Assembly: GCF_902498785.1 (NCBI RefSeq)
Contig: NZ_LR701494.1
Span: 743,022-807,021 of the forward strand
Direction: 5' to 3'
Source: Sphingomonas sp. EC-HK361
GTDB lineage: Bacteria; Pseudomonadota; Alphaproteobacteria; Sphingomonadales; Sphingomonadaceae
Length of the DNA: 64,000 nt
A program made the position numbers and the translations under genes. This document shows positions 4,566 to 32,403 of this stretch, one piece after another (within the stretch, counting starts at the first letter, position 1; each line of letters starts with the position of its first letter). The notes below the pieces were generated by a model. It had not been told where the DNA came from, made no database searches, and saw nothing but the letters and a program-made list of their open reading frames with translations.

Positions 4566-4703
4566 ATGCCGTCTCCGTTTACTGAGACCCGCTTTACACA
4601 GGGGATCGAGGGTCTTATGTGCCCGCTTCCCGCTGCCCCATGGGACTTCCAACCGCAAGGCAGCATTTCGTCGTCGGCGTCAGCCACTTGGAGGTCCCTT
4701 GAG

Positions 4704-5939: not shown

Positions 5940-5956
5940 CGGCAATCACGTTTAAC

Positions 5957-6038
5957 CGTCATCCCGGCGAAGGCCGGGATCCAGAGTCGCGAGCGTCGTC
6001 TCTTGTGGCTCTGGACCCCGGCCTTCGCCGGGGTGACG
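5957..6038. repeat. Intergenic palindromic repeat
   Basis: The arms CGTCATCCCGGCGAAGGCCG (from 5957) and its near-complement ending CCGGGGTGACG at 6038 enclose about 22 unpaired bases. It lies between the decarboxylase and the deoxyhypusine-synthase-like gene and ends 16 bases before the latter's start, so it will be folded into their shared leader or mRNA. Confidence 0.85.
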
Positions 6039-6054
6039 GCGTATGGAGAAGATC

Positions 6055-7874: not shown

Positions 7875-9359
7875 CTACTCAACCTCCACGCGCAGCGTCG
7901 CGAGCGCGGCAATCAGCATAACACCCGCGGCAAACGCCATCGTCCACACCGGTTCGGTCGGGAAAAAGTGACGGACGATCGTCCCCATGACGGTTGCGAC
8001 CAAAAGCTGCGGAATGACGACAAAGACGTTGAACAACCCCATGTAAATACCGAGCTTTGCCTGCGGCAGGTTCGACGCGAGGATCGCATAGGGCATGGCG
8101 AGGATGGACGCCCAGGCGATGCCGATGCCGATTTCCGACAAGATAAGCAGGTTCGCATCGCGGACGAAGAGAAACGAAAGATACCCCAGCGCGCCGAGCG
8201 TCAGCGCTAGCGCATGCGTCCTGATCTGCCCCAGCCGGCGCGCGATCGGGCGGAGGAAAAACGCCGCGAAGATCGCCGCGACGCCGTTATATGCCGCGAA
8301 CAGGATGCCGACCCAGTTGCCGCCCTGGTTATAGGCCTCGCTCGCCGGGTCGCTCGAACCGAACACATACTGGGCGACGACGGGCGTGGTGTAGATCCAC
8401 ATGATGAACAGCGCCGACCAGGTGAAGAACTGGACGAGCGCAAGCCGCTTCATGATCGGCGGCATCCCGGCGAAATCGCCGACGATGTGGGTCAGGAGAT
8501 TGTCGTGGCGCCCGCGGGCATGGAGCGCCGCGGCGGCCAGGCGGGCGATCCCGTAGCCCGCGACAAGGCCAGCGAGGAGATAGAGCTCCTTCTCCAGCCC
8601 GGCGAACGCGACCAGCAGCGCGATCAGCAGTCCGCCGCCGATCCACGGCCACGCGCCGATGCTCGAAGCGGGCGGTGGTGGCGGAGAAAGCGCGTCGGCA
8701 GGCTCGCGCCCGTCGAACGCCGCGAGTTGCGCGGGGCTGTATTCCTTCGTCGTCAGCACGGTCCACATGACCGCCAGAAACAGCGCCGCGCCGCCGAAAT
8801 AGAAGCTGTAGCGGACAGTATCGGGGATACCGCCCCCGGGGGCCGCGTTCGCCACGCCGAGATGATCGAGGATGAACGGCGTGGCAGAGCCGATGACCGC
8901 CCCCGCGCCGATGAACGCGGTCTGGATCGCATAGCCCGCCGTGTGCTGATCCTTGTCGAGCATGTCGCCCACGAATGCGCGGAACGGCTCCATCGAGATG
9001 TTGAGCGACGCGTCGAGCATCCACAGCAGCAGCGCCGCCGCCAGCAGCGCGGGCGCATTGGGCATCCCGAACAGCGCGAGCGTCGCGAGGATCGCGCCCG
9101 CGACGAAATAGGGGCGCCGCCGCCCGAACCGCCCCCAGGTCCGGTCGCTGTAATGGCCGATGATCGGCTGGATGAGCAGCCCGGTCAGCGGCGCCGCGAT
9201 CCAGAGGATGGCGAGATTGTCGAGGCTTTCGCCGAGCGACTGGAAGATGCGGCTCATATTCGCGTTCTGCAGCGCGAAGCCGATCTGGATGCCGAAGAAC
9301 CCGAAGCTGATGTTCCACAGCCCGGCGAACCCCTGCCGCGGCCGACGCAATGCGGTCAT
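7875..9359 (-). CDS. MFS sugar transporter (sucrose/maltose type)
   Basis: This 494-residue major facilitator protein has 12 predicted helices. The cytoplasmic loop between helices 2 and 3 carries GHYSDRTWGRFGRRRPYF, the charged RxGRRRP pattern typical of the GPH/SUC-type sugar porters. GIYMGLFNVFVVIPQLL lies late in the C-terminal half. It probably moves maltose, maltodextrin or glucose across the inner membrane. It is the last gene of the minus-strand starch operon. Its ATG overlaps the stop of the sister transporter by four bases (TCAT at 9356-9359). A proline-rich loop (ALSPPPPPASS, about residue 225) separates the halves. Substrate choice between the two paralogues cannot be read from sequence. 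Confidence 0.85.
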   Translation of the reverse strand: MTALRRPRQGFAGLWNISFGFFGIQIGFALQNANMSRIFQSLGESLDNLAILWIAAPLTGLLIQPIIGHYSDRTWGRFGRRRPYFVAGAILATLALFGMPNAPALLAAALLLWMLDASLNISMEPFRAFVGDMLDKDQHTAGYAIQTAFIGAGAVIGSATPFILDHLGVANAAPGGGIPDTVRYSFYFGGAALFLAVMWTVLTTKEYSPAQLAAFDGREPADALSPPPPPASSIGAWPWIGGGLLIALLVAFAGLEKELYLLAGLVAGYGIARLAAAALHARGRHDNLLTHIVGDFAGMPPIMKRLALVQFFTWSALFIMWIYTTPVVAQYVFGSSDPASEAYNQGGNWVGILFAAYNGVAAIFAAFFLRPIARRLGQIRTHALALTLGALGYLSFLFVRDANLLILSEIGIGIAWASILAMPYAILASNLPQAKLGIYMGLFNVFVVIPQLLVATVMGTIVRHFFPTEPVWTMAFAAGVMLIAALATLRVEVE

Positions 9360-10678
9360 GCACCCTCCCCTGCGGCGTCTGCGCGCCGTGTCGTTCCTAC
9401 CAAGATGGTCGCCACCGCCGCGCAGAGCATGAGTACGCCCGCGAGCATCAGGACGTGGCGCGGATCGCCGCCCAGGACCGGATGATAGGCGAGATACATC
9501 ACGACCGTCTCGATCATCATAGGTATCACGATGAACATGTTGAAAATGCCCATATACACCCCCGTCCGCTCGGGCGGGATCGCGTTTGCGAGCATGATAT
9601 ACGGGCAGCCCATGAGGCTCGCCCAGCCGAGCCCGATGCCGATCATCGCGACGAACAGCGTCGTCTGATCGGCGATGTGGGGAATCGCCAGCATCGCTGC
9701 GCCTGAGGCGGTGACGGACACCGCATGTACCCCGCGCGCGCCGTAGCGCTTCGCGAGCGGCACCATCGCGAAGGCGGCGAGGAAGGCGACGAAATTGTAG
9801 AAGGCGCCGACCTGCCCGTTGACGAGCGTGGCCGCGCGAACGCTCGCGGCGTCGCCGCTGCCGAAGAGCGTGCGGGCGATGGCGAAGACGATGAACTGCC
9901 AATAGGCGAACATCGCGAACCACTGGCACAGCATCGCGATGGCGAGCCTGCGCATCGCGACCGGCATCTCGCGGATGGCATCGCCGATGTCGCGCAGCGT
10001 CGAGCCCGCCGAGAGTGGACGGGAGCGCATCGCCGCGATCTCACCCTCGCTCATCGGCAATTCGGGGACGCTCAGCACCGACCAAAGGATCGACCCCAGC
10101 GACAGCACCGCACCGATCAGGAACGCCGCGCGGGTGATGTGGGGAATGCCGTTGGCGTCGATCGCGTCCGCATCCATCCCCCACCAGACGAGGATCGAAG
10201 GCGCGAGATAGGAGAGCGTCTGCGCAAGGCCCGTAAACGCCGCCTGGGTCAGGAAGCCGAACGGGCGCTGATCCTCATCCAGCCGATCGCCGACATAGGC
10301 GCGGTAAGGCTCCATCGTGATGTTGTTGGCAGCGTCGAGAATCCACAGCAGCGACGCCGCGACCCAGAGCGCGGGGCTGTACGGCATCGCGAGCAAGCCG
10401 AGCGAGGCGATGACCGCGCCGATCAGGAAATAGGGCGTGCGGCGGCCGAAACGCGTGACCGTCCGGTCGCTGAGCGCGCCGATGATCGGCTGCACGAGCA
10501 GCCCGGTCATCGGCCCGGCGAGCCAGAGCAGCGTATTGCCCTCATCCGCGCCCAGATAATTGTAGATCGGCCCCATGTTCGATTGCTGGAGCCCGAAAGA
10601 GAATTGCAGGCCGAAAAAGCCGATGTTCATCTGCACGATGCGGGCGAGACTGAGGTGCGGCTTGCGGAGCCTGGTCAT
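9356..10678 (-). CDS. MFS sugar transporter (sucrose/maltose type), paralogue
   Basis: This 440-residue 12-helix major facilitator protein is related to its downstream neighbour. It starts near [19 protein letters not shown] and carries [18 protein letters not shown] in the helix 2-3 loop and [19 protein letters not shown] late in the second half. It lacks the extra central loop of the downstream paralogue, which accounts for the shorter length. ATG 10678 overlaps the halogenase stop by four bases, and its own stop overlaps the next transporter's ATG, so three genes are translationally chained. The expected role is inner-membrane uptake of maltose or maltodextrin products. Tandem paralogues may split substrates or work as a pair. 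Confidence 0.85.
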
Positions 10679-12153
10679 GCGGCCAGCGCCTCAAGCGCTT
10701 TCGCGTGTGATGGGAAGTTCAACGCACAACGCGTTAGAAAGTCGTCCAATCCGTCATCGCGTGTCGGCACAGCGGTGAGCTTTGCAGCGTCCGGAAACGT
10801 GCCGTAACCGGCGAAGATGCAGCCCCAGCTCAGCGGTGCGTAATGGCGCGCGATGTCCTGTTCCGCGATCTCCGTAAGCAGATCGCCGCCGGTGAACCAG
10901 CAGGTGAAGAGGCGTTTCAGCGAATCCGACAGGCGATCGTTCGCCGCACAATCGCGCCAATACTCGGTGTCGCCGCGCCGGTTCAGCCGGTAGTGCGCGA
11001 AGATATAGTCACGGATGCCGTCATAGCGCCGCGCGATCGTCCGGTTGAACGTGTCGCGGTGCTTCGGGGTGAAGCCGCCATCGGTGAACGCCTGGACAAA
11101 TCCCTCGACCGTTGCCTGGACGATGTGGAGCGCGGTCGCCTCGAGCGGTTCGATGAAGCCCTGGGCTAGCCCGACCGCAAGACAATTGCCCTTCCAGCTT
11201 TCCGCGACACGCCCGACCTTCATCGTCAGGTGCCGTGCGGTCGCATTGGTGTCGCCCAGATTCGCGCGCAGTTCCGCCTCCGCAGCGTCGGCGTCGATAT
11301 AGCGGCTGGAATAGACATAGCCGTTTCCGGTCCGCGTGATGAGCGGGATGTCCCACGCCCAGCCCGCCGACAGTGCGGTGGAGGTCGTGTAGGGTCGCGG
11401 TCCGGCATCGGTCAGCGGCGTGGGCATCACCACCGCGCGGTCGTTGAACAGCGTGTCGGCATAGCTCACGAACGGAACGCCGAGCGCGCCCTGCGCAATG
11501 ACCGAACCAAAGCCCGAGCAATCGACGAACAGGTCGCCGGCGAGCGTCTCGCCGCCGTCGAGGACGAGGTGGGTGACTGCGCCTTCCGCGCCGATCACCA
11601 CCTCGTCCACGCGGCGCGGCAAATGGGTAACGCCGCGCCCGACCGCATGATCGCGCAGCACCTGCCCGACCAGCGTGGCGTCGAAATGATAGCCGTAGGT
11701 CGCGTCGAAGGGGAAACTCTCCGACGGCAGCGGCGCGAGCGATCCTTCCGCGAGGCGGCTGTTGAGGAAGAAGCGATCCGGATGCGCGGGCACGTCGCGC
11801 CCGGTGCGGCGCGCCAGATGCGCGGCGTGGAAGGCCGGCTCGGTGTGCAGATCGACTGCGCTGGCGAAAGGGTGAAAATACGCCTCATATCCCGGCTCAC
11901 GCGACCAGCCGCGAAACGCGATGCCGACCTTGTAGGTCGCGTGCGCGGCCGGCATCCAATCGCGCTCGTCGATACCGAGGGTTCGGAAGAAATGACGGAG
12001 TTGCGGGGTCGATCCCTCACCGACTCCGACGATGCCGATCTCCGGGCTTTCGACCAAGGTTACCGATGCATCAGGCCAAGCCTTGGCAATCAGGCACGCC
12101 GTCATCCATCCGGCGGTGCCGCCGCCGAGGATGACGACGCTGGGCGGCGTCAT
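10675..12153 (-). CDS. Flavin-dependent tryptophan halogenase family protein (1)
   Basis: This 492-residue FAD enzyme belongs to the PrnA-like family. It has the dinucleotide-binding motif GGGTAGWM (10-17), the catalytic lysine K75 in TYKVGIAF, the family hallmark WxWxIP as GWAWDIP, and the conserved EPLEAT stretch. All elements for flavin-dependent halogenation are present, so it should be active on an electron-rich aromatic, with a separate flavin reductase supplying FADH2. No reductase gene is nearby. Homologues in Xanthomonas, Caulobacter and Brevundimonas also sit in TonB-receptor carbohydrate loci, and their physiological substrate is not settled. The start overlaps the esterase stop by four bases. 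It is clearly different in sequence from the second halogenase at 18654-20174. Confidence 0.88.
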   Translation of the reverse strand: MTPPSVVILGGGTAGWMTACLIAKAWPDASVTLVESPEIGIVGVGEGSTPQLRHFFRTLGIDERDWMPAAHATYKVGIAFRGWSREPGYEAYFHPFASAVDLHTEPAFHAAHLARRTGRDVPAHPDRFFLNSRLAEGSLAPLPSESFPFDATYGYHFDATLVGQVLRDHAVGRGVTHLPRRVDEVVIGAEGAVTHLVLDGGETLAGDLFVDCSGFGSVIAQGALGVPFVSYADTLFNDRAVVMPTPLTDAGPRPYTTSTALSAGWAWDIPLITRTGNGYVYSSRYIDADAAEAELRANLGDTNATARHLTMKVGRVAESWKGNCLAVGLAQGFIEPLEATALHIVQATVEGFVQAFTDGGFTPKHRDTFNRTIARRYDGIRDYIFAHYRLNRRGDTEYWRDCAANDRLSDSLKRLFTCWFTGGDLLTEIAEQDIARHYAPLSWGCIFAGYGTFPDAAKLTAVPTRDDGLDDFLTRCALNFPSHAKALEALAA

Positions 12154-13136
12154 CGCTTGCCCAGCAGGAAGCCGAAAATGTCGTCCATACGCGCCGCCCA
12201 GGCGTTTTCCTCATGCGCGGCGCCGGGATATTCGCGGGATTGGAAATCACGGCCGCGCTTCCAGCCGAGCGCAATCAGATCGGCATCGATCGCCTGCTGA
12301 TACGGGCGATAGTTGGCGTCGAGCGTTTCGGTGCCGTGATCCATCCACAGACGCCGGCCGTTCGGCTTGCCGAGCGATTTCGTGAGATATGCCTTCCAGA
12401 TGGCGGTGATCTCCGGATTGAACGGGCCGACATCGGACGGATCGGCGAGCGGCCAATGCGTCGAGACGCAAGCGGCGCGGCCGAAGACGCTGGGCTTTTC
12501 GACAAAGGCATAGCACGAGATGAGGCCGCCCATGCTGGACCCGATGACCGCAGTGTGCTTCGGATCGGGCGAGGTGCGGAACTCGCGGTCGATCATCGGC
12601 TTCAGATCGTCGGTGAGAAAGCGCAGATAAGCATCTCCGGTTATTGGGCCTTTGGCGAGGCGATCGAAGCCGGCGCGCACCTTGGGAGAGGCCATCGCAT
12701 AGAGCTTCTGCGGAAAATACTGACGGTAACGCGCCTCGCCCGGCTGATCGACGCCGACGATGATGAACGGATCGACCCGCTTTGCGGCGATGAGGCGGAG
12801 CGCGGATTTGTCCGCGGCCCAGACCTTGTTGAAGTTTGATCGCGCGAGGAAGAACAGGTTCTGCCCGTCGTGCATATAGACAACGCCGTAGCGGCGTTTG
12901 GCGGCGTCATAGCCGGGCGGGAGCCAGACGACGACGTGCGGCGGCGTGATGTTGGTCGTCGGGACGGCGGCGATTTCGACGAAGCGGCCGGTGTCCTGCG
13001 CAGCGGCTGGCAGGGTGAAGAGCGCGAACACCAATGTCGCCAGTATTCCCGCGAAGGCGGGAATCCAGACTCTTCTTGCGGGCCGGATCCCCGCCTTCGC
13101 GGGGATACGCTTAAGCGGGGTAAAGAGCCCACTCAC
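12150..13136 (-). CDS. Exported esterase (esterase D / enterochelin-esterase-like family)
   Basis: This 328-residue alpha/beta hydrolase has an N-terminal signal peptide. The hydrophobic core is LATLVFALFTLPAAAQ, with likely cleavage after AAAQ near residue 47. The mature protein has YMHDGQN, the nucleophile motif GSSMGG and a C-terminal AAHEENAW histidine, as in the PF00756 esterase family. GTG 13136 overlaps the GH97 stop (GTGA), which supports this start even though the first 30 or so residues are encoded by a palindromic repeat (13043-13108). Within a starch operon it could remove acyl groups from oligosaccharides in the periplasm. That is inference. The order GH97, esterase, halogenase is translationally coupled. 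Confidence 0.8.
   Translation of the reverse strand: MSGLFTPLKRIPAKAGIRPARRVWIPAFAGILATLVFALFTLPAAAQDTGRFVEIAAVPTTNITPPHVVVWLPPGYDAAKRRYGVVYMHDGQNLFFLARSNFNKVWAADKSALRLIAAKRVDPFIIVGVDQPGEARYRQYFPQKLYAMASPKVRAGFDRLAKGPITGDAYLRFLTDDLKPMIDREFRTSPDPKHTAVIGSSMGGLISCYAFVEKPSVFGRAACVSTHWPLADPSDVGPFNPEITAIWKAYLTKSLGKPNGRRLWMDHGTETLDANYRPYQQAIDADLIALGWKRGRDFQSREYPGAAHEENAWAARMDDIFGFLLGKR
13043..13108. repeat. Palindromic repeat encoding the signal-peptide n-region of the esterase
   Basis: GTATTCCCGCGAAGGCGGGA and its partner ending CGCGGGGATAC form two hairpins around an AGACTCTTCTTGCGGGCC spacer. It is read in frame as the basic start of the esterase signal peptide (KAGIRPARRVW and neighbours). Confidence 0.85.
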
Positions 13137-15193
13137 TTCCGCTTCTTCCCCGGCTTGCCCTTCTTGCCCGCGACGAAGCGGATCGCCTCGCCGCCGCCGG
13201 GAGCCAGCGCTACCGTGATCGTCTGCCCTTGCGCGACCTCCATCTTCTCGATCGTGATCGAATGCCGCGCCTCGGTGCGGTAATTGGCGCCGGGGCCATC
13301 ACGATAGATTTCAGCGGTATAGCTGCGGTTCCTGTCGAGGAAATCGAGCTTCACCTGGCTGGTGCGCGGCTGCTCGTCGCCGACCGCGCCCAAATACCAG
13401 TCGTCCGAATTCTTGTCTTTGCGCGCGAAGGTCACATAGTCGCCGACTTCACCGTTGAGCACGCGGGTGTCGGACCAGTCGGCGGGCACGTCCTTGATGA
13501 ACTGGAAGGCCTCCGGATATTTCGCGTAATTCTCGGGCAGGTCGGCGGCCATCTGCACCGGCGAATAGAGGACGACATAGAGCGCGAGTTGCTTTGCGAT
13601 CGTCGACTGGATCGGGGTGCCGCCCTTCCCCGTCAGGCTGAGCACGCCCGGCGTGAAGTCCATCGGCCCTGACAGCATCCGCGTGAAGACGAGGTTCGCC
13701 TCATGCTCGGGCGGGTTCTTGGGCACGCCCCAGGCATTGTATTCCATGCCGCGCGCACCTTCGCGGCTGACCCAGTTCGGGTAGGTCCGGCGCAAGCCGG
13801 TGTCCTTGATCGGCTCATGCGTGTCGACCGCGACATGGTATTTCGCCGCGGTCTCGATGACGCGCAGGTGGTGGTTCGACGACCACTGGCCGTCATGCCA
13901 TTCGCGGTAGTGGGTGCCGTCGGGATCGACACGTTCCATCTGCCCGGCATCGGCGACATAGCCGGTCTTCACGACCTGCTCGCCGTTGGAGGCGGCATAG
14001 GCATAGGCGCGGTCGAGCTGGCTTTCATAGTGGCTCGCCGAGCCGCCGGTTTCGTGGTGGCCGATCAGGTGGACGCCCTTGGCCGAGGCGTAGGCGGAGA
14101 GCGTCGGCATGTCGAACTTGGCCTGCGGGGTCGCGAAGTCGAACGCGTTGCCGTTGCCGAACCAGTCGGAGTCCCAACCGACATTCCACCCCTCGACCAG
14201 CACCCCGGGGAAGCCATTGGCGGCGGCGAAATCGATATATTTCTTCACATTGTCGGTTGTCGCGCCGACGTTCGGCCCGCCCCAGCCCGACTTGTCGATG
14301 TGCATTTCCCACCACACGCCGACATATTTGGATGGCTTGAACCAGCTGACGTCGCCGAGCTTGTTGGGCTCGTTCAGATTGAGCTCGATATGGCTCATAT
14401 AGAGGCCGGGCGCGTCGTCGGAGAGGATCATCGTGCGCCACGGCGTCGTGAACGCGCCGGCCTTCGTGACCTTCGCCGCGGTCGCGCCGGGGGCGAGCGT
14501 CGCCTTGAATTTCGTGCCCTCGACATGGCGGAGCCACATCGAGGAATAGTCAACGAGCGCCGCCTCGTGGAACGCGATATAGGTGCCGTCGGCGAGCTTC
14601 ATCGTAACCGGCGTGTGCGCCTGGCCGACGCTGGTGATCGGCGTCTTGTTGTAGAGATATTCGTAGCGGTTCCACTCGCCCGCCGGGATCCACCAGGCGG
14701 TGCCGTCCTGCGCCAGCGCGAACTCGGTCAGCTCGTCGGCGATATGCGCGGTCTTCAGGTTCGGCTGGTCGGGCATTTCGTAGCGGAAGCCGATACCGTC
14801 GTCGAAGAGGCGGAAGGTGACGTCCATCTCGCGCTTCAGGTCCTTAGCCTCCTTCAGGCGGACCTTCAGCTCGACATGATTGTCGCGGATCTGCGACCAT
14901 TCGCCCCATGGCTGCTTCCACGTCTGGTCGAACTTCGCCGTTTTCGCATCGAGGAACGTCATGTTGCGCTCGATCTTGGGCGCATCGGTAAACAGGAAAC
15001 CGAGCCGGCTGTCATTGATGACGGGCTTGCCGTTGCGGGTCACCGCATAGGTCGCGTGGCCTTCGGGATCGAGGCTGACGCTTACCGCGATCTTGCCGTT
15101 CGGCGACTTGGCGCTCGCGACCACATCGGCGAGCGCCGGCGTGGCAGTGATGAGCGCGATCAGCGACAAGACGGTGCGACCCGACAATTTCAT
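13133..15193 (-). CDS. Glycoside hydrolase family 97 (SusB-like alpha-glucosidase)
   Basis: This 686-residue exported enzyme has a signal peptide ending near TPALADV (residues 1-23). The N-terminal beta-super-sandwich, about 25-280, is followed by the catalytic (beta/alpha)8 barrel, about 300-560. Recognisable motifs are LVEGWNVGWDSDWFG, HLIGHHETGG, VDTHEPIKDTGLRRTYPN, and REGARGMEYNAWG, which holds a conserved catalytic glutamate. A small C-terminal beta domain ends in a lysine-rich tail (GKKGKPGKKRK). GH97 enzymes release glucose from maltodextrins, and some members act on alpha-galactosides. The amylase neighbours favour maltodextrin. It starts three bases after the GH13 stop and overlaps the esterase start. 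Confidence 0.9.
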   Translation of the reverse strand: MKLSGRTVLSLIALITATPALADVVASAKSPNGKIAVSVSLDPEGHATYAVTRNGKPVINDSRLGFLFTDAPKIERNMTFLDAKTAKFDQTWKQPWGEWSQIRDNHVELKVRLKEAKDLKREMDVTFRLFDDGIGFRYEMPDQPNLKTAHIADELTEFALAQDGTAWWIPAGEWNRYEYLYNKTPITSVGQAHTPVTMKLADGTYIAFHEAALVDYSSMWLRHVEGTKFKATLAPGATAAKVTKAGAFTTPWRTMILSDDAPGLYMSHIELNLNEPNKLGDVSWFKPSKYVGVWWEMHIDKSGWGGPNVGATTDNVKKYIDFAAANGFPGVLVEGWNVGWDSDWFGNGNAFDFATPQAKFDMPTLSAYASAKGVHLIGHHETGGSASHYESQLDRAYAYAASNGEQVVKTGYVADAGQMERVDPDGTHYREWHDGQWSSNHHLRVIETAAKYHVAVDTHEPIKDTGLRRTYPNWVSREGARGMEYNAWGVPKNPPEHEANLVFTRMLSGPMDFTPGVLSLTGKGGTPIQSTIAKQLALYVVLYSPVQMAADLPENYAKYPEAFQFIKDVPADWSDTRVLNGEVGDYVTFARKDKNSDDWYLGAVGDEQPRTSQVKLDFLDRNRSYTAEIYRDGPGANYRTEARHSITIEKMEVAQGQTITVALAPGGGEAIRFVAGKKGKPGKKRK

Positions 15194-15196
15194 GGC

Positions 15197-16837
15197 TTAC
15201 TCCCGACCAACAAGACTGGCGACATAGCCCGCATACGGGCCGAGCGCACCGTTATCGCAGACACCCGTCGATGCAATGATATGCCATTCGGGCTGAGGGC
15301 TATGCGCCGTGGTTTGCGCCGAAAGGTTGAAGACGCAGCGCAGACGCTCTCCGTTCAGCCGCCGCTCGAACACGAGCAGCGCCGCCTCGGCCTCCACCAG
15401 ATGCATGTCGCCCCACAGCAGCGCGGGCTGGTCGTTGCGCAACCGGAGCACGCCGCGGGTGAAGGCGAGGAGCGACTGCGGATCATCCGCCTGCGCGGAC
15501 ACCGCGATCGCGCGGTGCTCCGGGCCGACGGGCAGCCACGTCCGCGGCGCCGTGCTGAAGCCAAGCTGCGGCGCCTCCGCCTGCCACGGCATCGGCGTGC
15601 GCGCGCCGTCACGCGACAAAGTGAGCGGCCAGTTGGCGATCGCTTCGGGGTCCTGCAGATCCTCGAACGCGATCTCGACCTGCGGCAGGCCGAGCTCCTC
15701 CCCGTAGTAAAGGAAGATATTCCCGCGCAGGCACGCGAGCAGCAGCATCTTCACGCGCGCGAAGGCGTCCCGGTGTTCCGCCGCGACCCAGCGCGAGATC
15801 GCGCGCGGGGCGTCGTGGTTCTCGAACGCCCAGCTCGGCCAGCCGATACTCTCGCCCTCGGGCCAGTTGGCGAGCGCATCGGCGACGACCTTTGGAGTCA
15901 GCGCCGGCGCGTAGAGGAAATCGAAGCCATAGGCGCTGTTGAGGCGGCGCTTTTCGGCGGTGAAGAGCTTCATCTCGCGGTCGCTGTCGGCGCCGCCCAC
16001 CTCGGCAACGGTGAAGCGGTCGCCATAGCTGTCGAGCAGCGCCCGAACGCGTTCGAGGAACGCGGGGATTGCGGCATGGCTCTGGTTGTAGCGGTGGAGC
16101 TGGAAGTCGAACGGGCGGGTCCGGACCGTCCCGTCTTCCGGCGCGGGCGGATTATCGGTGAGCGCCGGATCGTGCATCGCGAAGTTGATTGCATCGAGCC
16201 GGAAGCCATCGACGCCCCGGTCGAGCCAGAAGCGGGCGGTGTCGAGCAGTTCGTCCTGCACCGCAGGCAGATGGACATGGAGCTGCGGCTGCGCGGCGAG
16301 GAAATTGTGGCAATAATATTGCCCACGCCGCGCATCCCACGTCCAGGCGGGGCCGCCGAAGACCGACTGCCAGTTGTTGGGCGGGCTGCCATCGGGCTTG
16401 GCGTCGGCCCAGACGTACCAGTCGGCCTTGGGATTTTCGCGGCTCGACCGGCTCTCGACGAACCACGCGTGCTGATCTGAGGTGTGCGACCAGACCATAT
16501 CGACGAGGACGCGCAGGCCCAGCGCGTGGGCGCGGGCGATCAGCGCATCGAAATCGGCAAGCGTGCCGTAGATCGGATCGACATCGCGGTAATCGGCGAC
16601 GTCGTAACCGAAGTCCGCCTGCGGACTGGTGAAGAAAGGCGAGATCCAGATCGCATCGACGCCAAGGTCGGCGACGTAATCGAGATGCGCGGTGATGCCA
16701 GCAAGATCACCGATCCCGTCGCCGTTCGAATCGGCGAAGCTGCGCGGGTATATCTGGTAGATCGCGGCACCGCGCCACCATTCATGGTCGGACGCGGTTT
16801 CGGGCTTTCGCGCCATGACGTTCATCGGGACGTTCAC
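15197..16837 (-). CDS. GH13 alpha-glucosidase / oligo-1,6-glucosidase-like
   Basis: This 546-residue GH13 enzyme has no signal peptide and is presumably cytoplasmic. It has the (beta/alpha)8 barrel with WWRGAAIYQIYPRSF near the N-terminus. The nucleophile is D215 in GFRLDAINF, the acid/base is E279 in TVAEVGG and the third carboxylate is D342 in FENHDAPR. The insert NGDGIGDLAGI is typical of the alpha-glucosidase subfamilies. GTG 16837 is chosen because it overlaps the amylase stop (GTGA) and has GGAG eight bases upstream. ATG codons 12 and 21 bases later are alternatives. It would hydrolyse imported maltose or maltodextrin to glucose. Confidence 0.87.
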   Translation of the reverse strand: MNVPMNVMARKPETASDHEWWRGAAIYQIYPRSFADSNGDGIGDLAGITAHLDYVADLGVDAIWISPFFTSPQADFGYDVADYRDVDPIYGTLADFDALIARAHALGLRVLVDMVWSHTSDQHAWFVESRSSRENPKADWYVWADAKPDGSPPNNWQSVFGGPAWTWDARRGQYYCHNFLAAQPQLHVHLPAVQDELLDTARFWLDRGVDGFRLDAINFAMHDPALTDNPPAPEDGTVRTRPFDFQLHRYNQSHAAIPAFLERVRALLDSYGDRFTVAEVGGADSDREMKLFTAEKRRLNSAYGFDFLYAPALTPKVVADALANWPEGESIGWPSWAFENHDAPRAISRWVAAEHRDAFARVKMLLLACLRGNIFLYYGEELGLPQVEIAFEDLQDPEAIANWPLTLSRDGARTPMPWQAEAPQLGFSTAPRTWLPVGPEHRAIAVSAQADDPQSLLAFTRGVLRLRNDQPALLWGDMHLVEAEAALLVFERRLNGERLRCVFNLSAQTTAHSPQPEWHIIASTGVCDNGALGPYAGYVASLVGRE

Positions 16838-18657
16838 TGGCCGGACTCCGCAGCGCACACCGCATAGCCGAGCGGCGGCAGCGTCACCGTGACGCTTCCG
16901 GGCGCGCTCGCGGTCGGCACGCAGGTGCCGGCGAGCGTCGTAAAGCGGGTCGAGCCGACATTCACCTCGACCTGCCGGGTGATCGGCGCGGTCGAGGTGT
17001 TGAAGGCGAGGAGGATTTCCGCGCCCGTCGCCGGATCGAGGCGTGACGCGGCAAAGAGCCCCGGCTTCTCCTCGACCCAGCGGATGACGGTCTTGCCGCG
17101 GGTGAGCGCCGGATGGCTGGTACGCACTTTCGCAAGTGCTGAAATCTCGCGGTAAAGCGGGTGATCGGGGTTGAAATTCGCGACTGCGTTGGTCGATTTG
17201 CTGCCGATCAGCGTGTTGTCGTTATAGACCGCGACCTTCGATGCGAACATGTCCTCGCGCGCGTCCTGATCGCCGCCGTCGCCGGCGAACCCCTGCTCGT
17301 CGCCCGAATAGATGGTCGGCACGCCGCGCAACGTCAGCAGCATCGCGTGCGCGAGCATGTCGCGCTTCAGCACCTCGGCATCGTCGGCTTTGGGCTTGGC
17401 CTTGCGGATGAACCAGCCGACGCGGCCCTGATCGTGATTGCCGAGGAAGGTCGGCAGCTGCTCGGCTGCCTCCGCGCCGCCTTCGTAGAGCGAATCGCCC
17501 ATGAAGAGCTTCGCGAGCTCGCTTGTCGGCGCATCGGCCTCGACCACGTCGTTCACCGCGCGGTCGAAGGCGAAGTCGAGCACTGCGGGCAGCTTGTCGA
17601 CGCGGGTGTGTGCCGCGAGCCGCGCCGGGTCCATGTCGCCGGTCGCGACCTCGCCGAAGATGTGGAAGTTGGCGATGCCCTTGGCCGCGGCGCGTGCCTT
17701 CATGGCGGGCACGAACGCCTGCCAGAATTCCGGGTTCACATGCTGCGCCGTATCGATGCGGAAGCCGTCGACGCCATACCGGTCGATCCAGCCGCCGAAG
17801 ATATCGATCATGCCGGCGATGACCTTCGGGTTTTCGGTCATCAGGTCGTCGAGGCCGGAGAAGTCGCCCATCGTCGAGCTTTCGCCGGCGAAGGTGGAAT
17901 TGCCCCGGTTGTGGTATAGCGTCACGTCGTTCAGCCACGCGGGCGTCTTCGCCTTTTCCAAATCCTTCGGGATGTAAGGCGTGTAGGCGTAGCTCGGATC
18001 GGCGAGCTTCGCGAAATTCTCGGGCGTCTGCACCGCGTCTCCCGCAAAACCGGCGTTGATCGCCTTGCCAGTCACCCCGCCCTTGCGCTGATAGGGGTAG
18101 GTCGCGCGGTCGCGATAGTCACACTTCGATCCTTCACCGCATTCGCGGTACTGGATCACGTCGGCGGTGTGGTTGACGATGATGTCCATATAGACCTTCA
18201 TCCCCCGCGCATGCGCCGCATCGACGAGCGCGCGGAAATCGGCCTCGGTGCCGAGGTGCGGATCGACTTTGGTGAAATCGGTGATCCAGTAGCCGTGATA
18301 GCCGGCCGATTCCTGACCCTTCGCGCCCTGCACCGCCTTGTTCTTGAAAATGGGGCCGACCCACAGCGCGGTCACGCCGAGCCCCTGGATGTAATCGAGC
18401 CGCTTGACGAGGCCCTTCAGGTCGCCGCCGTGGTAGAAGCCCTTGTGGGTGGGATCGAACCCGGTCGTCAGCGGTCCGCCCTTTAGCCCGCCGCGATCGT
18501 TCGACGGGTCGGCGTTCTCGAACCGGTCGGGCAGGACGAAATAGATCACCTCGTCCTGCGGCAGACGGTCGCGGAAAGACGCCGGTGCTGCGGCCTGCGC
18601 GAGCGCAGGCGCGGGAAGTGCGGTTGCGAGAAAGAGTGCGAGCAGAGGAAGTTTCAT
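16834..18657 (-). CDS. Exported alpha-amylase (GH13)
   Basis: This 607-residue exported or periplasmic alpha-amylase has a signal peptide, about residues 1-20, ending ALPAPALAQ. The GH13 barrel has the nucleophile D302 in GFRIDTAQH, the acid/base E336 in FGEVATG and the stabilising D409 in LGNHDQGR. VMDIIVNHTADV-like region II is visible as MDIIVNHTAD. The C-terminal beta domain is about 520-607. The ATG overlaps the upstream halogenase stop by four bases, and the stop overlaps the GH13 glucosidase GTG. It is probably the first enzyme to cut dextrins brought in by the TonB-dependent receptor encoded upstream. Confidence 0.9.
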   Translation of the reverse strand: MKLPLLALFLATALPAPALAQAAAPASFRDRLPQDEVIYFVLPDRFENADPSNDRGGLKGGPLTTGFDPTHKGFYHGGDLKGLVKRLDYIQGLGVTALWVGPIFKNKAVQGAKGQESAGYHGYWITDFTKVDPHLGTEADFRALVDAAHARGMKVYMDIIVNHTADVIQYRECGEGSKCDYRDRATYPYQRKGGVTGKAINAGFAGDAVQTPENFAKLADPSYAYTPYIPKDLEKAKTPAWLNDVTLYHNRGNSTFAGESSTMGDFSGLDDLMTENPKVIAGMIDIFGGWIDRYGVDGFRIDTAQHVNPEFWQAFVPAMKARAAAKGIANFHIFGEVATGDMDPARLAAHTRVDKLPAVLDFAFDRAVNDVVEADAPTSELAKLFMGDSLYEGGAEAAEQLPTFLGNHDQGRVGWFIRKAKPKADDAEVLKRDMLAHAMLLTLRGVPTIYSGDEQGFAGDGGDQDAREDMFASKVAVYNDNTLIGSKSTNAVANFNPDHPLYREISALAKVRTSHPALTRGKTVIRWVEEKPGLFAASRLDPATGAEILLAFNTSTAPITRQVEVNVGSTRFTTLAGTCVPTASAPGSVTVTLPPLGYAVCAAESGQ

Positions 18658-20174
18658 GCGGCCACCGTGGTTGGGGCGGCCGCTGCATGGGCCGCGATGA
18701 AGGCGTCGTGGGTCGGCATCCGCGCGGCGACGCCTTGGGCGTGGCGGCGGGCGAGCGCGAGATATTCGGCGAGTTCTGCGGCCGAGAGATCGTCGGCGAG
18801 CGGATGATAGGCTTGCGGACGGATGCCCTGCCCGGTCATCACCTGGAGCCATGCGACCTCGGTGAACAGCTCGTGACTTTCGTGGACGATCCGGCCGCTT
18901 TCGCGGAACAACGCGATCCGCGCGGCGAGGCTGTCCGGAATCGCAGCCTCGCGGCAGGCGCGCCAGAACGGCTCGTCGCGGCCGTTGGCGTGATAGTGGA
19001 AGATCAGGAAATCACGGATCGCTTCCCATTCGCGCGCGGTCTGGCGATTGAACTCGGCCGCACTCGCGGGGCTGTCGCCTGCCGGCAGCAGCTGGAGCAG
19101 TCGCGCGATGCCCGACTGGACGAGGTGGATGCTCGTCGATTCGAGCGGCTCCATGAACCCAGCCGCCAGCCCGAGCGCGATGCAGTTGCCGACCCACGCC
19201 CGCTTGCGCCGCCCTGCACGGAAGCGTAGCGGGCGTGGATCGGCGAGCGGCGCGCCATCCAGCCCCGCAAGCAGGATGTCGGCCGCGCGATCGTCCGACA
19301 GATGCGCGCTGGAATAGACGATGCCGTTGCCACAGCGATGCTGGAGCGGGATGCGCCACTGCCACCCCGCCTCCTTCGCAGTCGCGCGGGTATAGGGCGT
19401 CAGCGCGCCAGCATTGGCGGACGGCACCGCGAGCGCACGGTCGCACGGCAGCAGGTGCGTCCAGTCCTCATAGCCGGCGTGGAGAGCCTCCTCGATCAGC
19501 AGACCCCGAAAGCCCGAGCAGTCGATGAAGAGATCGCCGGCGACCTTGCGATCGCCTTCAAGCGTGATCGAAGCAATGTTGCCGTCATCGACCGCGACAT
19601 GGACGACCTGGCCCTCGATCCGCTCGACCCCGCGCGCCTCGGCGTAGCGGCGCAGGAAAGCGGCGTAGAGCGCGGCGTCGAACTGGAACGCCCAGGCGAC
19701 CCCGCTCGGCAATTCGGTACGGCCGAGATCGCGCGCGAAACGGTTGCCGCGCGCGGCGATCGCGGTCGGGGAATAGTCCCACAGATCGCCTGCCGCCTCG
19801 CCGCCGCGCAGCCAGTAATGATGGAACGGCACGAGCCCCATGCCGCGGCCGATCGTGCCGAAGGCGTGGAGGTAGCGACTGTCGCCGCTCGATTTCGGGC
19901 CAGACCAGCCGACGAACTCGATCCCCAGCTTGAACGTGCCTAGCGTCGCGCGGACAAACGCATCCTCGTCGATGCCGAGATGCGCGTTGAAGAGGCGCAG
20001 CTGCGGGATCGTCGCCTCGCCCACCCCGACCGTGCCGATCGCATCGGATTCGATCAGCCGCACCGTCCAGCCCGCGGGCAGGAAGCGCGCAAAGGCCGCC
20101 GCCGCCATCCAGCCGGCGGTTCCCCCGCCGACGATGACAACGTTTGGAGAGGGCGTGGTTTTCGTCTTGTCCAT
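18654..20174 (-). CDS. Flavin-dependent tryptophan halogenase family protein (2)
   Basis: This 506-residue PrnA-like FAD halogenase homologue has GGGTAGWM (16-23), the catalytic lysine K82 in TFKLGIEF, the signature WQWRIP, and the EPLEST segment. All key residues are present. It differs from the first halogenase in having a longer insert after GWSGPKSSGDSRYLHAF and an arginine-rich stretch (RAGRRKRAWVGN). It follows the TonB-dependent receptor gene after a 160-base gap containing a repeat and overlaps the amylase start by four bases. It is therefore the second gene of the starch operon. The halogenation substrate, if any, is unknown. Confidence 0.88.
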   Translation of the reverse strand: MDKTKTTPSPNVVIVGGGTAGWMAAAAFARFLPAGWTVRLIESDAIGTVGVGEATIPQLRLFNAHLGIDEDAFVRATLGTFKLGIEFVGWSGPKSSGDSRYLHAFGTIGRGMGLVPFHHYWLRGGEAAGDLWDYSPTAIAARGNRFARDLGRTELPSGVAWAFQFDAALYAAFLRRYAEARGVERIEGQVVHVAVDDGNIASITLEGDRKVAGDLFIDCSGFRGLLIEEALHAGYEDWTHLLPCDRALAVPSANAGALTPYTRATAKEAGWQWRIPLQHRCGNGIVYSSAHLSDDRAADILLAGLDGAPLADPRPLRFRAGRRKRAWVGNCIALGLAAGFMEPLESTSIHLVQSGIARLLQLLPAGDSPASAAEFNRQTAREWEAIRDFLIFHYHANGRDEPFWRACREAAIPDSLAARIALFRESGRIVHESHELFTEVAWLQVMTGQGIRPQAYHPLADDLSAAELAEYLALARRHAQGVAARMPTHDAFIAAHAAAAPTTVAA

Positions 20175-20334: not shown

Positions 20335-23139
20335 TCAGAACTTGAAGGTGAACCCCGCCAGATAGCGACGCCCATAGGTCTGATAATCGATGATCTGGAG
20401 CGGCTGCCCCGGATTCTGGGTCGCGAACCGCTCGTTGGTCAGGTTCTGCGCCTGGATATACACCGACAGGCCGTTCAGGAACCCGCGCGAGAAATCATAG
20501 CCGATCTGTGCATCGATGATCGTCTCGGGCAGCGCGCGCCGCTGGACGCGGTTGGCGCCGAAGCCAGAGAGCTCGCCGATGAAGCTCGACCGGTAACGGA
20601 CCGAACCGCGCGCCGAGAAGCCCCATTTCTCGAAATAGCCAGTGCCGTTGGCGACCCATTTGGAGTAGCCGGGAATGTCCGACGGATCGGATGTCGGCGA
20701 GGTGCGGATCTTCGATTCCGTATAGGATGCGCCGCCCGTCACGCCAAAGCCGTCAAGCGCGCTAACGATCTCGCCAAAGGGCAACGTGCCGGCAAGCTCG
20801 ACACCGTAGAGCTCGCCACCACTGATGTTGTATGGCGTTGTAATGACCCCGATCGGCGAGACATAGAGCGGACCGCCGGGATTCGTCGTCTGATAGCCGC
20901 CCGACAGCGGCAGACCCGAATAGTCATAGGCGGTTTCGGGAATGCTCTGGTCGATGACGTAGCTGACGAGCTTCTTGTAGAAGAACTGTGCTGCCAGATA
21001 CCCCTTGTTGCCGAAATACTTCTCGAACGACAGGTCGGCCGCGTTAGCGCGGAACGGACGCAGATACGGGTTGCCGCTGCTTCCCGCGATCAGCTGGCGC
21101 TGTTGATCCACGCCGTAGGCGACAGCGAGGCGCATATCGTCCATGCGCGGACGCATGACTTCGCGCGCCAGCCCCGCGCGGATCACGAAGTCGCTGGGGA
21201 ACCGCAGCGACAGGTTCAGGCTCGGCATGACGTCCCAATAGTCCGCGCCCTTGCGGTTCGCGACCAGCGCATTATTCACGACATAATAGCCGTCGGTATG
21301 CTGCGAGGTGTTGATCGCCTGCAGGCCGATATTGCCGGTCAGTTCGCTGGCGCCGAGCTGCGTCTTGATGTTCGCCTGGGCATATAGCGTCATCAGGTCC
21401 TCATGGACCTGATAGGCCTTGGCCGGGACATCGAGCGACGTGTTCGGCGTCAGCTTGTAGATGCCGCCGTCCAGCAGGGCGAGCGGATCGTAGCTGACGA
21501 TCGGGCCGAGTCCGAGATAGGCCTGCTGCGTCGGCTTGAGCAGATAGTTGCTCGGAATCGCCTTGAATACCGATCCGTCGGCGATCTGCAGCAGCGCCTC
21601 GTCCGGCGTCAGCGACTTATCGTGATTGGTGTAGTTCCACCCGGCCTTGATGCTGGAGAGGAAGCCGCCGTCCATCTCCTTTTCGACCTCGACGCGGTAC
21701 TGCCAGATCCGGTCCTTCACGATCCGGTTGTTGTAATAACCCGCCTGGATGTTGCTGCCGCCCCAGCCGAGCGGATCGGTCAGCCCGATCAGGTTCGGAT
21801 CGGAATAGTCGAGCTGGTGGCTGTAGAACGAACCGGTCTCGCTGGTGGTGAAGCCGATCGTGTCGGTCGCGCCGACGCCGCGGCGAAAGCCGGTGCCCGA
21901 ATAACTTTCGAGGACGAGTTCGTTGCGGTCGGTGCGCGAATGGCTGACATCGACCATCGCGTTCCAGCCGTCATCCCCTTCCCACTTGTTGTTCCAGCCG
22001 AAGGAATAGAGCTTGGCGTGCCGCTGGAACGCATCGTTGCGAACCACGCCTTCGACGTTGGTGAACGTGCCGTTGGTGTAGGTGCCGTTCGTCGCCGTCG
22101 CGGTCGCGGGATTGAAGCGCGCGCCGTTGTTGGTCGGGTCGGTGACCGACTTGTTGTCCTGCCCGTCATAGGCAAGCGGCAGCTCGATGCCGCGCTTGAT
22201 CTGGTCGTCCTTGAAGTCCGAATAAAAGCCGTCGAAGGTCGAGGTGAAGTTGTCGACGGGCTTGAACTCCACCGTCCCCGTCACGCCGAAGCGCTTCAGG
22301 TCGGTCGAGGTGACGTAGGACTTCGACCCGCCGATCAGCGCGTTGCCGTTGATCGTGTTGTAGCCCCAGGAGTTGAACTCCTGAATCTGATAAGGCTCGT
22401 CGGTATAGCTCGCAGCGAGCGCGACACCGATCTTGCCGTCCGCGAACTGGTCGACATAGGTGCCGTTGACGCGGTAGCCATATTGCTTCGACCCCGAATT
22501 GAGCTTGCCCAGATCGGCATCGACGCCGCGCGCGCCGATCGAGATCACGCGCTTGCCATATTCGATCGGACGGATCGTGCGCAGGTCGACGGTGCCCGAC
22601 AGGCCCTGACCGACGATGCTCGCCATCGGCGTCTTGTAGACGAGGACCTGGTTGACGACCTCGGACGGATACTGATCGTATTCCACCGCGCGGTTGTCGC
22701 CGGTCGAGGTCTGTTCGCGACCGTTCAGCAGCGTCGTCGAGAAGTCGGGCGAGAAGCCGCGGATCGAGATGACGTTGGAGCGGCCCGATACGCGCTGCGA
22801 GGTCAGGCCCGGCAGGCGCGCGATCGATTCCGCGATCGAAGCGTCGGGCAGCTTGCCGATATCTTCCGACGACACCGATTCGACGATCTGGTCGCGGTTC
22901 TTCTTCTCGGCGACCGCGGATTCGAGGCTGGCACGAAAGCCGGTGACGACGATGTCCTGATCGTCGGTCGCCGTCTGATCGTCAGTGGTCTGCGCTGGGG
23001 TCTGCGCGGGCGCGGGCGTCGTCTGGGCGAGGGCCGGCGTCGCGGTCAGCACCATGGCCGCGCCGAGTGCGCCGAGGCTTGCGCCGAACGTCAGATGAGC
23101 ACGAAAGCGCGCGGTCGCCGCGCGAGAAAAGTCTGTCAT
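20335..23139 (-). CDS. TonB-dependent outer-membrane receptor (maltodextrin type)
   Basis: This 934-residue receptor has a signal peptide ending near TATPALAQ (about residue 39) and a Thr/Gln/Asp-rich linker. The TonB box DIVVTG lies near residue 63. The plug domain holds SIARLPGLTSQRVSGRSNV and SIRGFSPDFSTTLLNGRE. A long 22-strand barrel ends in the terminal aromatic AGFTFKF. It imports substrates using energy from a TonB-ExbB-ExbD complex, such as the one at 30.5-33 kb. Downstream amylase, GH13 and GH97 genes indicate maltodextrins. The start at 23139 has GGAGGGG seven bases upstream. An ATG 12 bases earlier lacks this. It is probably repressed by the divergent LacI-type regulator through the site near 23233. 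Confidence 0.92.
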   Translation of the reverse strand: MTDFSRAATARFRAHLTFGASLGALGAAMVLTATPALAQTTPAPAQTPAQTTDDQTATDDQDIVVTGFRASLESAVAEKKNRDQIVESVSSEDIGKLPDASIAESIARLPGLTSQRVSGRSNVISIRGFSPDFSTTLLNGREQTSTGDNRAVEYDQYPSEVVNQVLVYKTPMASIVGQGLSGTVDLRTIRPIEYGKRVISIGARGVDADLGKLNSGSKQYGYRVNGTYVDQFADGKIGVALAASYTDEPYQIQEFNSWGYNTINGNALIGGSKSYVTSTDLKRFGVTGTVEFKPVDNFTSTFDGFYSDFKDDQIKRGIELPLAYDGQDNKSVTDPTNNGARFNPATATATNGTYTNGTFTNVEGVVRNDAFQRHAKLYSFGWNNKWEGDDGWNAMVDVSHSRTDRNELVLESYSGTGFRRGVGATDTIGFTTSETGSFYSHQLDYSDPNLIGLTDPLGWGGSNIQAGYYNNRIVKDRIWQYRVEVEKEMDGGFLSSIKAGWNYTNHDKSLTPDEALLQIADGSVFKAIPSNYLLKPTQQAYLGLGPIVSYDPLALLDGGIYKLTPNTSLDVPAKAYQVHEDLMTLYAQANIKTQLGASELTGNIGLQAINTSQHTDGYYVVNNALVANRKGADYWDVMPSLNLSLRFPSDFVIRAGLAREVMRPRMDDMRLAVAYGVDQQRQLIAGSSGNPYLRPFRANAADLSFEKYFGNKGYLAAQFFYKKLVSYVIDQSIPETAYDYSGLPLSGGYQTTNPGGPLYVSPIGVITTPYNISGGELYGVELAGTLPFGEIVSALDGFGVTGGASYTESKIRTSPTSDPSDIPGYSKWVANGTGYFEKWGFSARGSVRYRSSFIGELSGFGANRVQRRALPETIIDAQIGYDFSRGFLNGLSVYIQAQNLTNERFATQNPGQPLQIIDYQTYGRRYLAGFTFKF

Positions 23140-23228
23140 AGTCCCCTCCACTGATCCTGCGCCGTCTTGCGGACGCTGGGCATTTCACAGGATCGCAATG
23201 ATCCCACTCCGGCCGCAATGGAAGCGGA

Positions 23229-23328: not shown

Positions 23329-24351
23329 ATGCCGGTGCAGGACAAACCAACCTCGTTCGACATCGCGGCGCTCGCCGGCGTGTCGCAGCCGACGGTCAGC
23401 CGGGCGCTGCGCGGCGACAAGACGGTCAGCGAGGCGACCCGCCTGCGCATCGAGGCGATCGCCGCGCAGCTGAACTACAAGGTCGACAAGAACGCATCGT
23501 CGCTGCGCCGCGGCCAGACCAATACGCTGGCGCTGCTGTTCTTCGACGAACGCACGCCCGACGGATCGCTCATCAACCCGTTTTTCCTGTCGATGCTGGG
23601 CTCCATCCTGCAAACCTGCGCGCGGCGCGGCTATGATCTGCTGACCTCGTTCCAGCAGCTGTCGTCGGACTGGCACGTCGATTACGAGGACAGCCGCAAG
23701 GCGGACGGGATCATCCTGCTCGGCTATGGCGATTACGAGGTCTACCGCGCGCGCGAGGAACAGCTGGTGCGGCAGGGCACGCATTTCGTGCGCTGGGGGT
23801 CGGTCGATCCGTCGAGCGCGGTCGGCACGATTGGGTGCGACAACCTGCGCGGCGGGCGGGACGCGGGCGAGCATCTGATCGCGCGGGGGCGCCGGTCGAT
23901 CGCGTTCATCGGCGACGCATCGGGCCATTATCCCGAGTTCCAGGCGCGGTTCCACGGGCTGTGCGCCGCGCTTCGCGACGCCGGGCTGACCTTCGACGCG
24001 GCGCTGCAGGTCGATGCGCAATCGGTCGAGGATGACGGCTATGGCGCGATGCGCCAGCTCCTCGCGCGCGGCGTCGCGTTCGATGCGGTGTTCGCCGCGT
24101 CCGATCTCATCGCGATCGGTGCGATGCGCGCGCTGGAAGAGGCCGGCATGCGCGTGCCCGAAGACGTGGCCGTCATCGGCTTCGACGATATTCCCGCCGC
24201 CGTCCTCGCCCACCCGCCGCTGACGACGATCGCGCAGGATTTCCGCCGCGCGGGCGAGATGCTGGTCGATACGCTGATCCGCCGCATCGCCAACCAGCCG
24301 ACCGACGCGACGCTGCTTTCGCCGCGGCTGGTGGAGCGCCGCACGACCTGA
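23329..24351 (+). CDS. LacI-family transcriptional regulator
   Basis: This 340-residue repressor has an N-terminal helix-turn-helix, about residues 8-54 (SFDIAALAGVSQPTVSRALRG), with the usual hinge region ending KNASSLRRGQTN. The periplasmic-binding-protein-like sensor domain is about 65-335 (ALLFFDERTPDG, GCDNLRGGRDAGEHL, VAVIGFDDIPAA). It is divergent from the TonB-receptor starch operon and presumably represses it, with a sugar releasing it. ATG 23329 has only a weak AAAGG upstream. GTG 23335 is a possible alternative. It ends four bases before the convergent histidine kinase gene. Confidence 0.9.
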   Translation: MPVQDKPTSFDIAALAGVSQPTVSRALRGDKTVSEATRLRIEAIAAQLNYKVDKNASSLRRGQTNTLALLFFDERTPDGSLINPFFLSMLGSILQTCARRGYDLLTSFQQLSSDWHVDYEDSRKADGIILLGYGDYEVYRAREEQLVRQGTHFVRWGSVDPSSAVGTIGCDNLRGGRDAGEHLIARGRRSIAFIGDASGHYPEFQARFHGLCAALRDAGLTFDAALQVDAQSVEDDGYGAMRQLLARGVAFDAVFAASDLIAIGAMRALEEAGMRVPEDVAVIGFDDIPAAVLAHPPLTTIAQDFRRAGEMLVDTLIRRIANQPTDATLLSPRLVERRTT

Positions 24352-30949: not shown

Positions 30950-30974
30950 GTCAAACTACTCCTGAGTTCGGCGG

Positions 30975-31454: not shown

Positions 31455-31555
31455 GTGAGAGCTATCCTATCCGTTACTTCATGCCGTCCCGGCGCGAACA
31501 CCGGGATCGGGGGGACGGCCGGGCGCCCGATGCGGGCGACCCGGCCGACCGTCAC

Positions 31556-32356: not shown

Positions 32357-32403
32357 TCAGTTATTCCCTCTAACTAGCTGATTTCTTGCGGACTTTCGCC
32401 CCA

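Follow-up and report, generated by a model that had tools for sequence, protein, structure and literature searches.

Paired flavin-dependent halogenases in a Sphingomonas starch-type operon and their link to TonB-dependent receptors

The window analyzed here is a stretch of 64,000 nucleotides from Sphingomonas sp. EC-HK361 (contig NZ_LR701494.1, positions 743,022 to 807,021), and it holds an operon that carries two genes for flavin-dependent halogenases, halA and halB. On the minus strand the operon runs TonB-dependent receptor, halA, amylase, glycoside hydrolase family 13 (GH13) enzyme, GH97 enzyme, esterase, halB, and two major facilitator superfamily (MFS) transporters, with no internal stops. 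Five of the eight junctions are four-base overlaps, and the remaining gaps measure 3, 8, and 160 nucleotides, the last lying between the receptor gene and halA. Profile matches and coordinates bear out the gene order and families assigned by the first-pass annotation, from the receptor to the two transporters, and its description of most junctions as four-base overlaps is fair; the interval it gave, 10675..20174, does span halA to halB, while the receptor and the transporters fall just outside. Some gene starts are our own choice, and signal peptides were judged by eye. TonB-dependent carbohydrate uptake and utilization (CUT) loci are defined by a receptor, hydrolases, inner-membrane transporters, and a regulator, and all of these occur together here. 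Judged by its gene content, the operon combines a system of the starch/maltodextrin type for uptake and breakdown with two halogenases, and its closest counterparts are in Sphingomonas and relatives. Profile scans found no flavin reductase among ten window proteins and no other biosynthetic gene in the operon.

Table 1 Genes of the halogenase-containing operon and its divergent regulator (window coordinates).
Feature	Position	Strand	Profile support
LacI-family regulator, divergent from operon	23329..24351	+	PF00356, PF13377
TonB-dependent receptor, TIGR01782 (TonB-Xanth-Caul) subfamily	20335..23151	-	TIGR01782 554 bits (cut-off 310); PF07715, PF00593
halA, flavin-dependent halogenase, 506 aa	18654..20174	-	PF04820 603.8 bits (cut-off 21)
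GH13 alpha-amylase (signal peptide by eye), overlapping halA by 4 bases	16834..18657	-	PF00128
GH13 alpha-glucosidase-like, no signal peptide by eye, start chosen	15197..16825	-	PF00128 396 bits
GH97 enzyme, signal peptide by eye	13133..15193	-	PF10566, PF14508, PF14509
Esterase	12150..13136	-	PF00756
halB, flavin-dependent halogenase, 492 aa	10675..12153	-	PF04820 440.9 bits (cut-off 21)
MFS transporter, sugar-symporter-like	9356..10678	-	PF07690; TIGR01301 match under its cut-off
Second MFS transporter, sugar-symporter-like	7875..9359	-	PF07690; TIGR01301 match under its cut-off

Both halogenases match PF04820 over their full length and keep the GGGTAG motif, the catalytic lysine and glutamate, WxWxIP, and EPLE. 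The relevant residues are K82, WQWRIP (271-276), and E345 followed by STS in HalA, and K75, WAWDIP (265-270), and E338 followed by ATA in HalB. The two proteins are identical at 170 of 476 aligned residues (36%), and a tree of 80 halogenases divides into two deep clades, one half with HalA and the other with HalB, so the pair did not arise by a recent duplication. The first-pass annotation had described two distinct enzymes that keep the lysine, WxWxIP, and EPLE, which holds, and its picture of intact halogenases in a starch operon with an unexplained function is supported. Across 118 aligned halogenases, the lysine is kept in 116 and the glutamate in 117. As neither HalA nor HalB has a signal peptide by eye, both should be cytoplasmic, whereas the amylase and the GH97 enzyme each have one. 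The two proteins without the lysine are encoded by the central gene of receptor-adjacent triplets in genomes G002 and G022 (L059:9576-11060 and L149:8041-9528, respectively); each is a degenerate halogenase, with the lysine replaced and motifs altered, that sits between two intact ones, and together they are perhaps a conserved pseudo-enzyme.

Among solved structures, HalA is best matched by Protein Data Bank (PDB) entries 9luq (493 bits), 6y1w (Xcc4156, 488 bits), and 6frl (BrvH, 461 bits), followed by PrnA at 284 bits, and HalB by tryptophan 5- and 6-halogenases (330 and 325 bits), with BrvH at 296 bits. The lid of HalA aligns with that of BrvH without a gap and is the short substrate lid of the BrvH type, so the HalA pocket should be open like that of BrvH. 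HalB aligns with BrvH over a nearly equal length (5-456 against 13-463), and its lid was judged by length alone. According to the BrvH report (PMC5945002), the enzyme shows no activity on free tryptophan and brominates indole slowly, is inactive once its catalytic lysine is replaced, and has an open pocket that its authors liken to that of MibH, a halogenase of tryptophan within a peptide. Taken with PMC7336383, which states the native substrate of Xcc4156 to be unknown, it indicates that BrvH and three Xanthomonas enzymes use indole or indole derivatives and not free tryptophan.

Both genes are under purifying selection. The ratio of nonsynonymous to synonymous substitution (dN/dS, Nei-Gojobori) is 0.05-0.16 for halA in eight of nine locus pairs and 0.095-0.24 for halB in all nine. 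In the pair L003/L023 the value for halA reaches 0.49 because halA was replaced there, as described below. The amylase, compared in eight of the nine pairs, has a single high value of 0.37 (L011/L016).

The first-pass annotation had proposed a survey of whether the halogenase pair tracks the amylase, which we ran on 69 Sphingomonadaceae genomes, 28 of them with an orthologue of the window amylase. A halogenase lies within 15 kilobases (kb) of the amylase at 24 of the 28 loci, so the genes are not absent from most such loci, an absence that the first-pass annotation had named among the results that would refute its reading. At 19 loci the halogenase is at most 500 nucleotides upstream of the amylase on the same strand, with one further case at 602 nucleotides, and one of the four loci that lack a halogenase in the 15-kb range is at a contig end. 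HalB occurs at 14 of the 28 loci and both halogenases occur at 12 under the 500-nucleotide upstream rule; 14 of 15 HalB orthologues are 1.7-7.9 kb from the amylase, and a scan with HalB returned 27 loci, 17 of which also contain HalA. Both genes are present in the starch locus of S. echinoides (L010), among others. At the level of genomes, halogenase matches are present in 26 of the 28 with the amylase as against 16 of the 41 without it. Conservation of the two-halogenase arrangement in relatives, together with purifying selection, means that it is not due to chance, and by these comparisons the halogenases of starch loci appear not to be passengers.

A wider pattern emerges when the halogenases are mapped relative to TonB-dependent receptors. 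Five genomes (three Sphingomonas, Rheinheimera, and Alteromonas), all reached through the HalB scan and to that extent a biased sample, contain 30 halogenases and 55 TIGR01782 receptor places, two of the latter each joined from two matches. These counts exclude three PF04820 matches of 25-29 bits and three Cupin_8 matches of 33-81 bits, all from G005. A TIGR01782 receptor is found within 5 kb of 24 of the 30 halogenases, against 1.11 expected under random placement (calculated with rounded genome sizes and contig ends ignored), and of 22 of 25 once the five genes that recruited the genomes are dropped. Of the remaining six, three are starch-operon halB genes at a distance of 5.1-8.8 kb from the receptor, and the other three have receptors of different families 0.2-2.7 kb away. 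All eight halogenases of G022, which was drawn once the idea had been formed, are within 3.6 kb of a TIGR01782 receptor. In the starch-receptor clade, 36 of the 37 receptors are halogenase-linked. The sugar genes vary among halogenase loci (starch; GH1 at L066; GH97 beside L067 and L072), and receptor-linked halogenases recur in alpha- and gammaproteobacteria, beside several receptor families. As members of the same clades are found next to receptors in these other loci and next to other receptor families, the link is with the TonB receptor and not with starch as such. The connection to sugar uptake made by the first-pass annotation is therefore kept insofar as halogenases recur in starch loci, but the association that lies behind it is with the receptor. 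Across loci of different sugars, the genomic evidence for coupling between halogenases of the HalA and HalB clades and TonB-dependent receptors appears well supported. Halogenases (20 matches) occur in 8 genomes of a class-wide sample of 96 from Alphaproteobacteria, a TIGR01782 receptor in at least 7, and both in at least 3.

Three further gene families share this neighborhood. In the five genomes, 11 of 15 SapC genes, 7 of 9 Cupin_8 genes above 100 bits, and 4 of 6 DUF6445 genes are within 5 kb of a TIGR01782 receptor, the other 4 SapC genes not being near one, and the gene order receptor-SapC-cupin-halogenase is seen in five loci (L062, L066, L071, L108, and L148). All nine Cupin_8 proteins aligned have the motif HxD..H, and all ten DUF6445 proteins have HxD..H..R, which we take to be the signature of 2-oxoglutarate- and Fe(II)-dependent (2OG-Fe(II)) oxygenases.

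Within the starch loci, the two halogenases differ in the company they keep over evolutionary time. For correlations of divergence, 44 loci were entered, of which 33 were usable with four genes and 26 with five, and the receptor was represented by its last 290 residues. The receptor-HalA partial correlation is 0.45 with amylase and GH13 removed (33 loci) and 0.51 with HalB removed as well (26 loci), and in each case none of 500 label permutations was as high. In the set of 26 loci, the partial correlation of the receptor with the amylase is 0.12, with GH13 -0.05, and with HalB 0.04, and that of HalB is 0.60 with GH13 and 0.39 with the amylase; a first run on 17 loci had given 0.81 for receptor-HalA and 0.42 for receptor-GH13. 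A comparison of L003 with L023 displays the same division in a single pair, as the receptors are 48% and the HalA proteins 53% identical, while amylase (91%), GH13 (90%), GH97 (95%), and HalB (88%) are far closer, and the break in identity falls just within the amylase gene. This plainly looks like one event in which receptor and halA were swapped together and the rest of the operon was retained. In three loci (L013, L171, and L174) receptor and halA are paired on one strand and the amylase is on the other; at L174, however, halB is on the receptor side, away from the amylase, which counts against a division into two units. On balance, the comparisons suggest that halA is inherited with the receptor and halB with GH13 and the sugar-digesting genes. 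Of the sugar-linked aromatic compounds put forward in the first-pass annotation, a starch-linked one is a less likely substrate for HalA, since halA follows the receptor and enzymes of its clade occur in loci that do not concern starch.

We tentatively favor, with less than even confidence, a reading in which HalA and HalB are cytoplasmic, open-pocket halogenases that are coupled to a nutrient receptor and act on a non-sugar aromatic group, perhaps one carried by a protein. Each enzyme would draw FADH2 from a reductase encoded elsewhere and use O2 and a halide, probably bromide for HalA by analogy with BrvH. Homologues suggest that the open pocket would allow halogenation of a non-sugar aromatic substrate, and for HalA we hypothesize that this is most likely an aromatic residue, protein- or peptide-borne, of the receptor or a partner of the receptor, modified before export. 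The Cupin_8 and DUF6445 proteins, being 2OG-Fe(II)-oxygenase-like, could perform related oxidations in the same module. Extended to all of these genes, the proposal becomes a proteobacterial receptor-associated oxidative module in which halogenases, JmjC-like Cupin_8, DUF6445, and SapC would act before export on the TonB-dependent receptor, or on one of its protein partners, by halogenation or hydroxylation; we consider this unlikely in its full form, although if true it would make protein halogenation a part of primary nutrient uptake.

A number of results weigh against our favored reading, several of them from a search for the modified residue. A scan of alignment columns compared 27 halogenase-linked with 32 unlinked receptors, two of which the nearest-receptor rule had mislabeled as unlinked (G008:C24:245105, with a halogenase within 1 kb, and G008:C2:211548, at about 8 kb). 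At Tyr718 of the window receptor, a candidate target, 20 of the 27 linked receptors have tyrosine, as against 1 of the 32 unlinked; the candidate was rejected when held-out receptors had tyrosine in 2 of 5 linked and 1 of 9 unlinked cases (Fisher test, 0.51). Tyrosine or phenylalanine occupies this column in 4 of 5 and 1 of 9 held-out receptors (Fisher test, 0.023), and as the linked and unlinked labels follow clades, the position is at most a clade marker. No receptor residue emerged as a halogenation target from the column scan and the held-out receptors. In L168, a locus without halA, the receptor is unchanged at all columns that 35 halogenase-linked starch receptors conserve, though this genome carries six halogenase matches elsewhere. 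The receptor of L170, a second locus without halA, from a genome with no halogenase matches, differs at 36 of these columns but sits outside the starch clade, so neither locus settles the question of substrate. To our knowledge, it would also be unusual for an outer-membrane protein exported by Sec to be modified in the cytoplasm. With Tyr718 rejected and L168 unchanged, the idea that the receptor is the substrate rests on genetic coupling and pocket shape. The coupling itself has limits, because receptor and halA adjoin, so that linkage by itself may account for some of the history they share; moreover, HalB does not track the receptor, and in the four-gene set HalA-GH13 (0.46) and the adjacent amylase-GH13 (0.45) correlate to a similar degree. 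Two amylase-bearing genomes have no halogenase match at an E value of 1e-60, so a halogenase is not essential to the locus, and 5 of the 20 halogenase matches in the class-wide sample are single genes with no TIGR01782 receptor among the matches listed and, in their five genomes, no module gene near the halogenase.

A possible, if doubtful, alternative is that the halogenases tailor or detoxify in the cytoplasm an aromatic small molecule imported through the receptor, such as a glycoside of phenolic or indolic type or a phenol from algae or plants. Co-evolution of receptor and HalA would be expected in this case because both recognize the ligand, and the preference of BrvH and the Xanthomonas enzymes for indoles fits as well. 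An imported aromatic is nearly as likely a substrate as the receptor; starch, however, is devoid of aromatic groups, and members of these clades also occur in loci for other sugars. It is distinctly unlikely that the enzymes respond to plentiful sugar by producing a signal or antibiotic, halogenated or of the hypohalite type, either to regulate uptake or to deter competitors. Sharing an operon with a feeding system and having several halogenases per genome would suit such a role, and a 2024 paper (PMC11337851) suggests that halogenase transcripts, which it assigns to Colwellia and phages, play a role in competition, yet the operon has no further biosynthetic gene and a diffusible product gives no reason for halA to follow its receptor. 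More improbable still is that the proteins are not halogenases in the cell but carry out another flavin oxidation or act as structural pseudo-enzymes. The two lysine-less paralogues beside a receptor and the lack of a flavin reductase in the operon speak for it, but the window enzymes keep lysine, glutamate, and WxWxIP, as do nearly all aligned relatives for the two catalytic residues, and BrvH depends on its lysine; the suggestion in the first-pass annotation that these could be other FAD enzymes thus finds no support in the residues. Finally, it is highly improbable that the genes merely adjoin receptors and have no function there. Adjacency accounts for part of the shared history and four amylase loci (one at a contig end) lack a nearby halogenase, but both genes are under purifying selection and the arrangement recurs in two proteobacterial classes beside several receptor families.

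Several other features of the window and of the compared loci deserve mention. The divergent LacI-family regulator goes beyond the first-pass annotation, as does an inverted repeat resembling a repetitive extragenic palindromic (REP) element, with arms CCCGCGAAGGCGGG at 13048-13103, within the start of the esterase gene, where it apparently codes for part of the esterase N-terminus; a second pair of REP-like arms is at 3551-3593. No convincing operator palindrome was seen between the LacI regulator and the receptor gene. Genes for TonB, ExbB, and two ExbD proteins (Pfam) occupy 30521-32997, about 7.4 kb from the receptor gene. An ornithine/arginine-decarboxylase-like gene adjoins a deoxyhypusine synthase family gene (PF01916) at 4566-7134, possibly for polyamine metabolism, and a kynureninase-like gene (KYNU_C; tryptophan degradation) at 43938-45152 shares the window with the halogenases. 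At L061:9312-14869, a TonB receptor missed by TIGR01782, whose domains include CarboxypepD_reg and OMP_b-brl_4, is flanked by a halogenase and a DUF6445 gene. Five alphaproteobacterial genomes (L154-L158) have a lone halogenase of about 395-461 bits, with no nearby TIGR01782-type receptor among the matches listed and no module gene. The starch locus of a record titled Arthrobacter sp. TPD3018 (L004) encodes proteins 90-98% identical to those of the Sphingomonas aquatilis locus (L005), and the record is probably mislabeled or contaminated.

Brominating enzymes of the BrvH/Xanthomonas type have been characterized without a known native substrate, and the comparisons above tie such enzymes to nutrient receptors, which gives the search a direction: HalA alongside its receptor and HalB alongside the hydrolases. 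Should that substrate prove to be a protein, a basic uptake system would involve a type of protein modification new to bacteria; should it prove to be an imported aromatic, these biocatalysts would gain a physiological role. The first-pass annotation held that homologues in such loci had been reported. Our search of titles and the starts of abstracts returned no paper about a link between halogenases and TonB receptors or sugar loci, but most subscription journals were outside its coverage and such reports may exist.

Set against known systems, the window shares a TIGR01782-type receptor, hydrolases, inner-membrane transporters, and a regulator with the CUT loci of Blanvillain 2007, although the term halogenase is absent from the CUT-locus paper (PMC1790865). 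The free-tryptophan halogenases (PrnA, RebH, and others) have family and catalytic motifs in common with HalA and HalB and include the best solved matches of HalB, but the long lid with which RebH grips the amino and carboxyl groups of tryptophan is missing from HalA, which has the short BrvH-type lid. MibH, which we take to be PDB entry 5uao, has an open pocket like BrvH and is distant in sequence (193 bits to HalA and 214 to HalB). Xcc4156 of Xanthomonas campestris and 9luq are the closest solved sequences to HalA; for Xcc4156, the text of PMC7336383 is without the terms operon, gene cluster, or TonB. BrvH has the same short lid as HalA and the same STS after the catalytic glutamate, and PMC5945002 describes a second halogenase gene upstream of its own, 42.7% identical; HalB differs in belonging to another clade and in having ATA for STS, and the term TonB is absent from that paper. 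The enzyme family, the type of locus, and the pairing of halogenases, as in BrvH and its neighbor, are thus already known, and what is new here is the quantified linkage to receptors, the split into two units, and the accompanying oxygenase-like genes.

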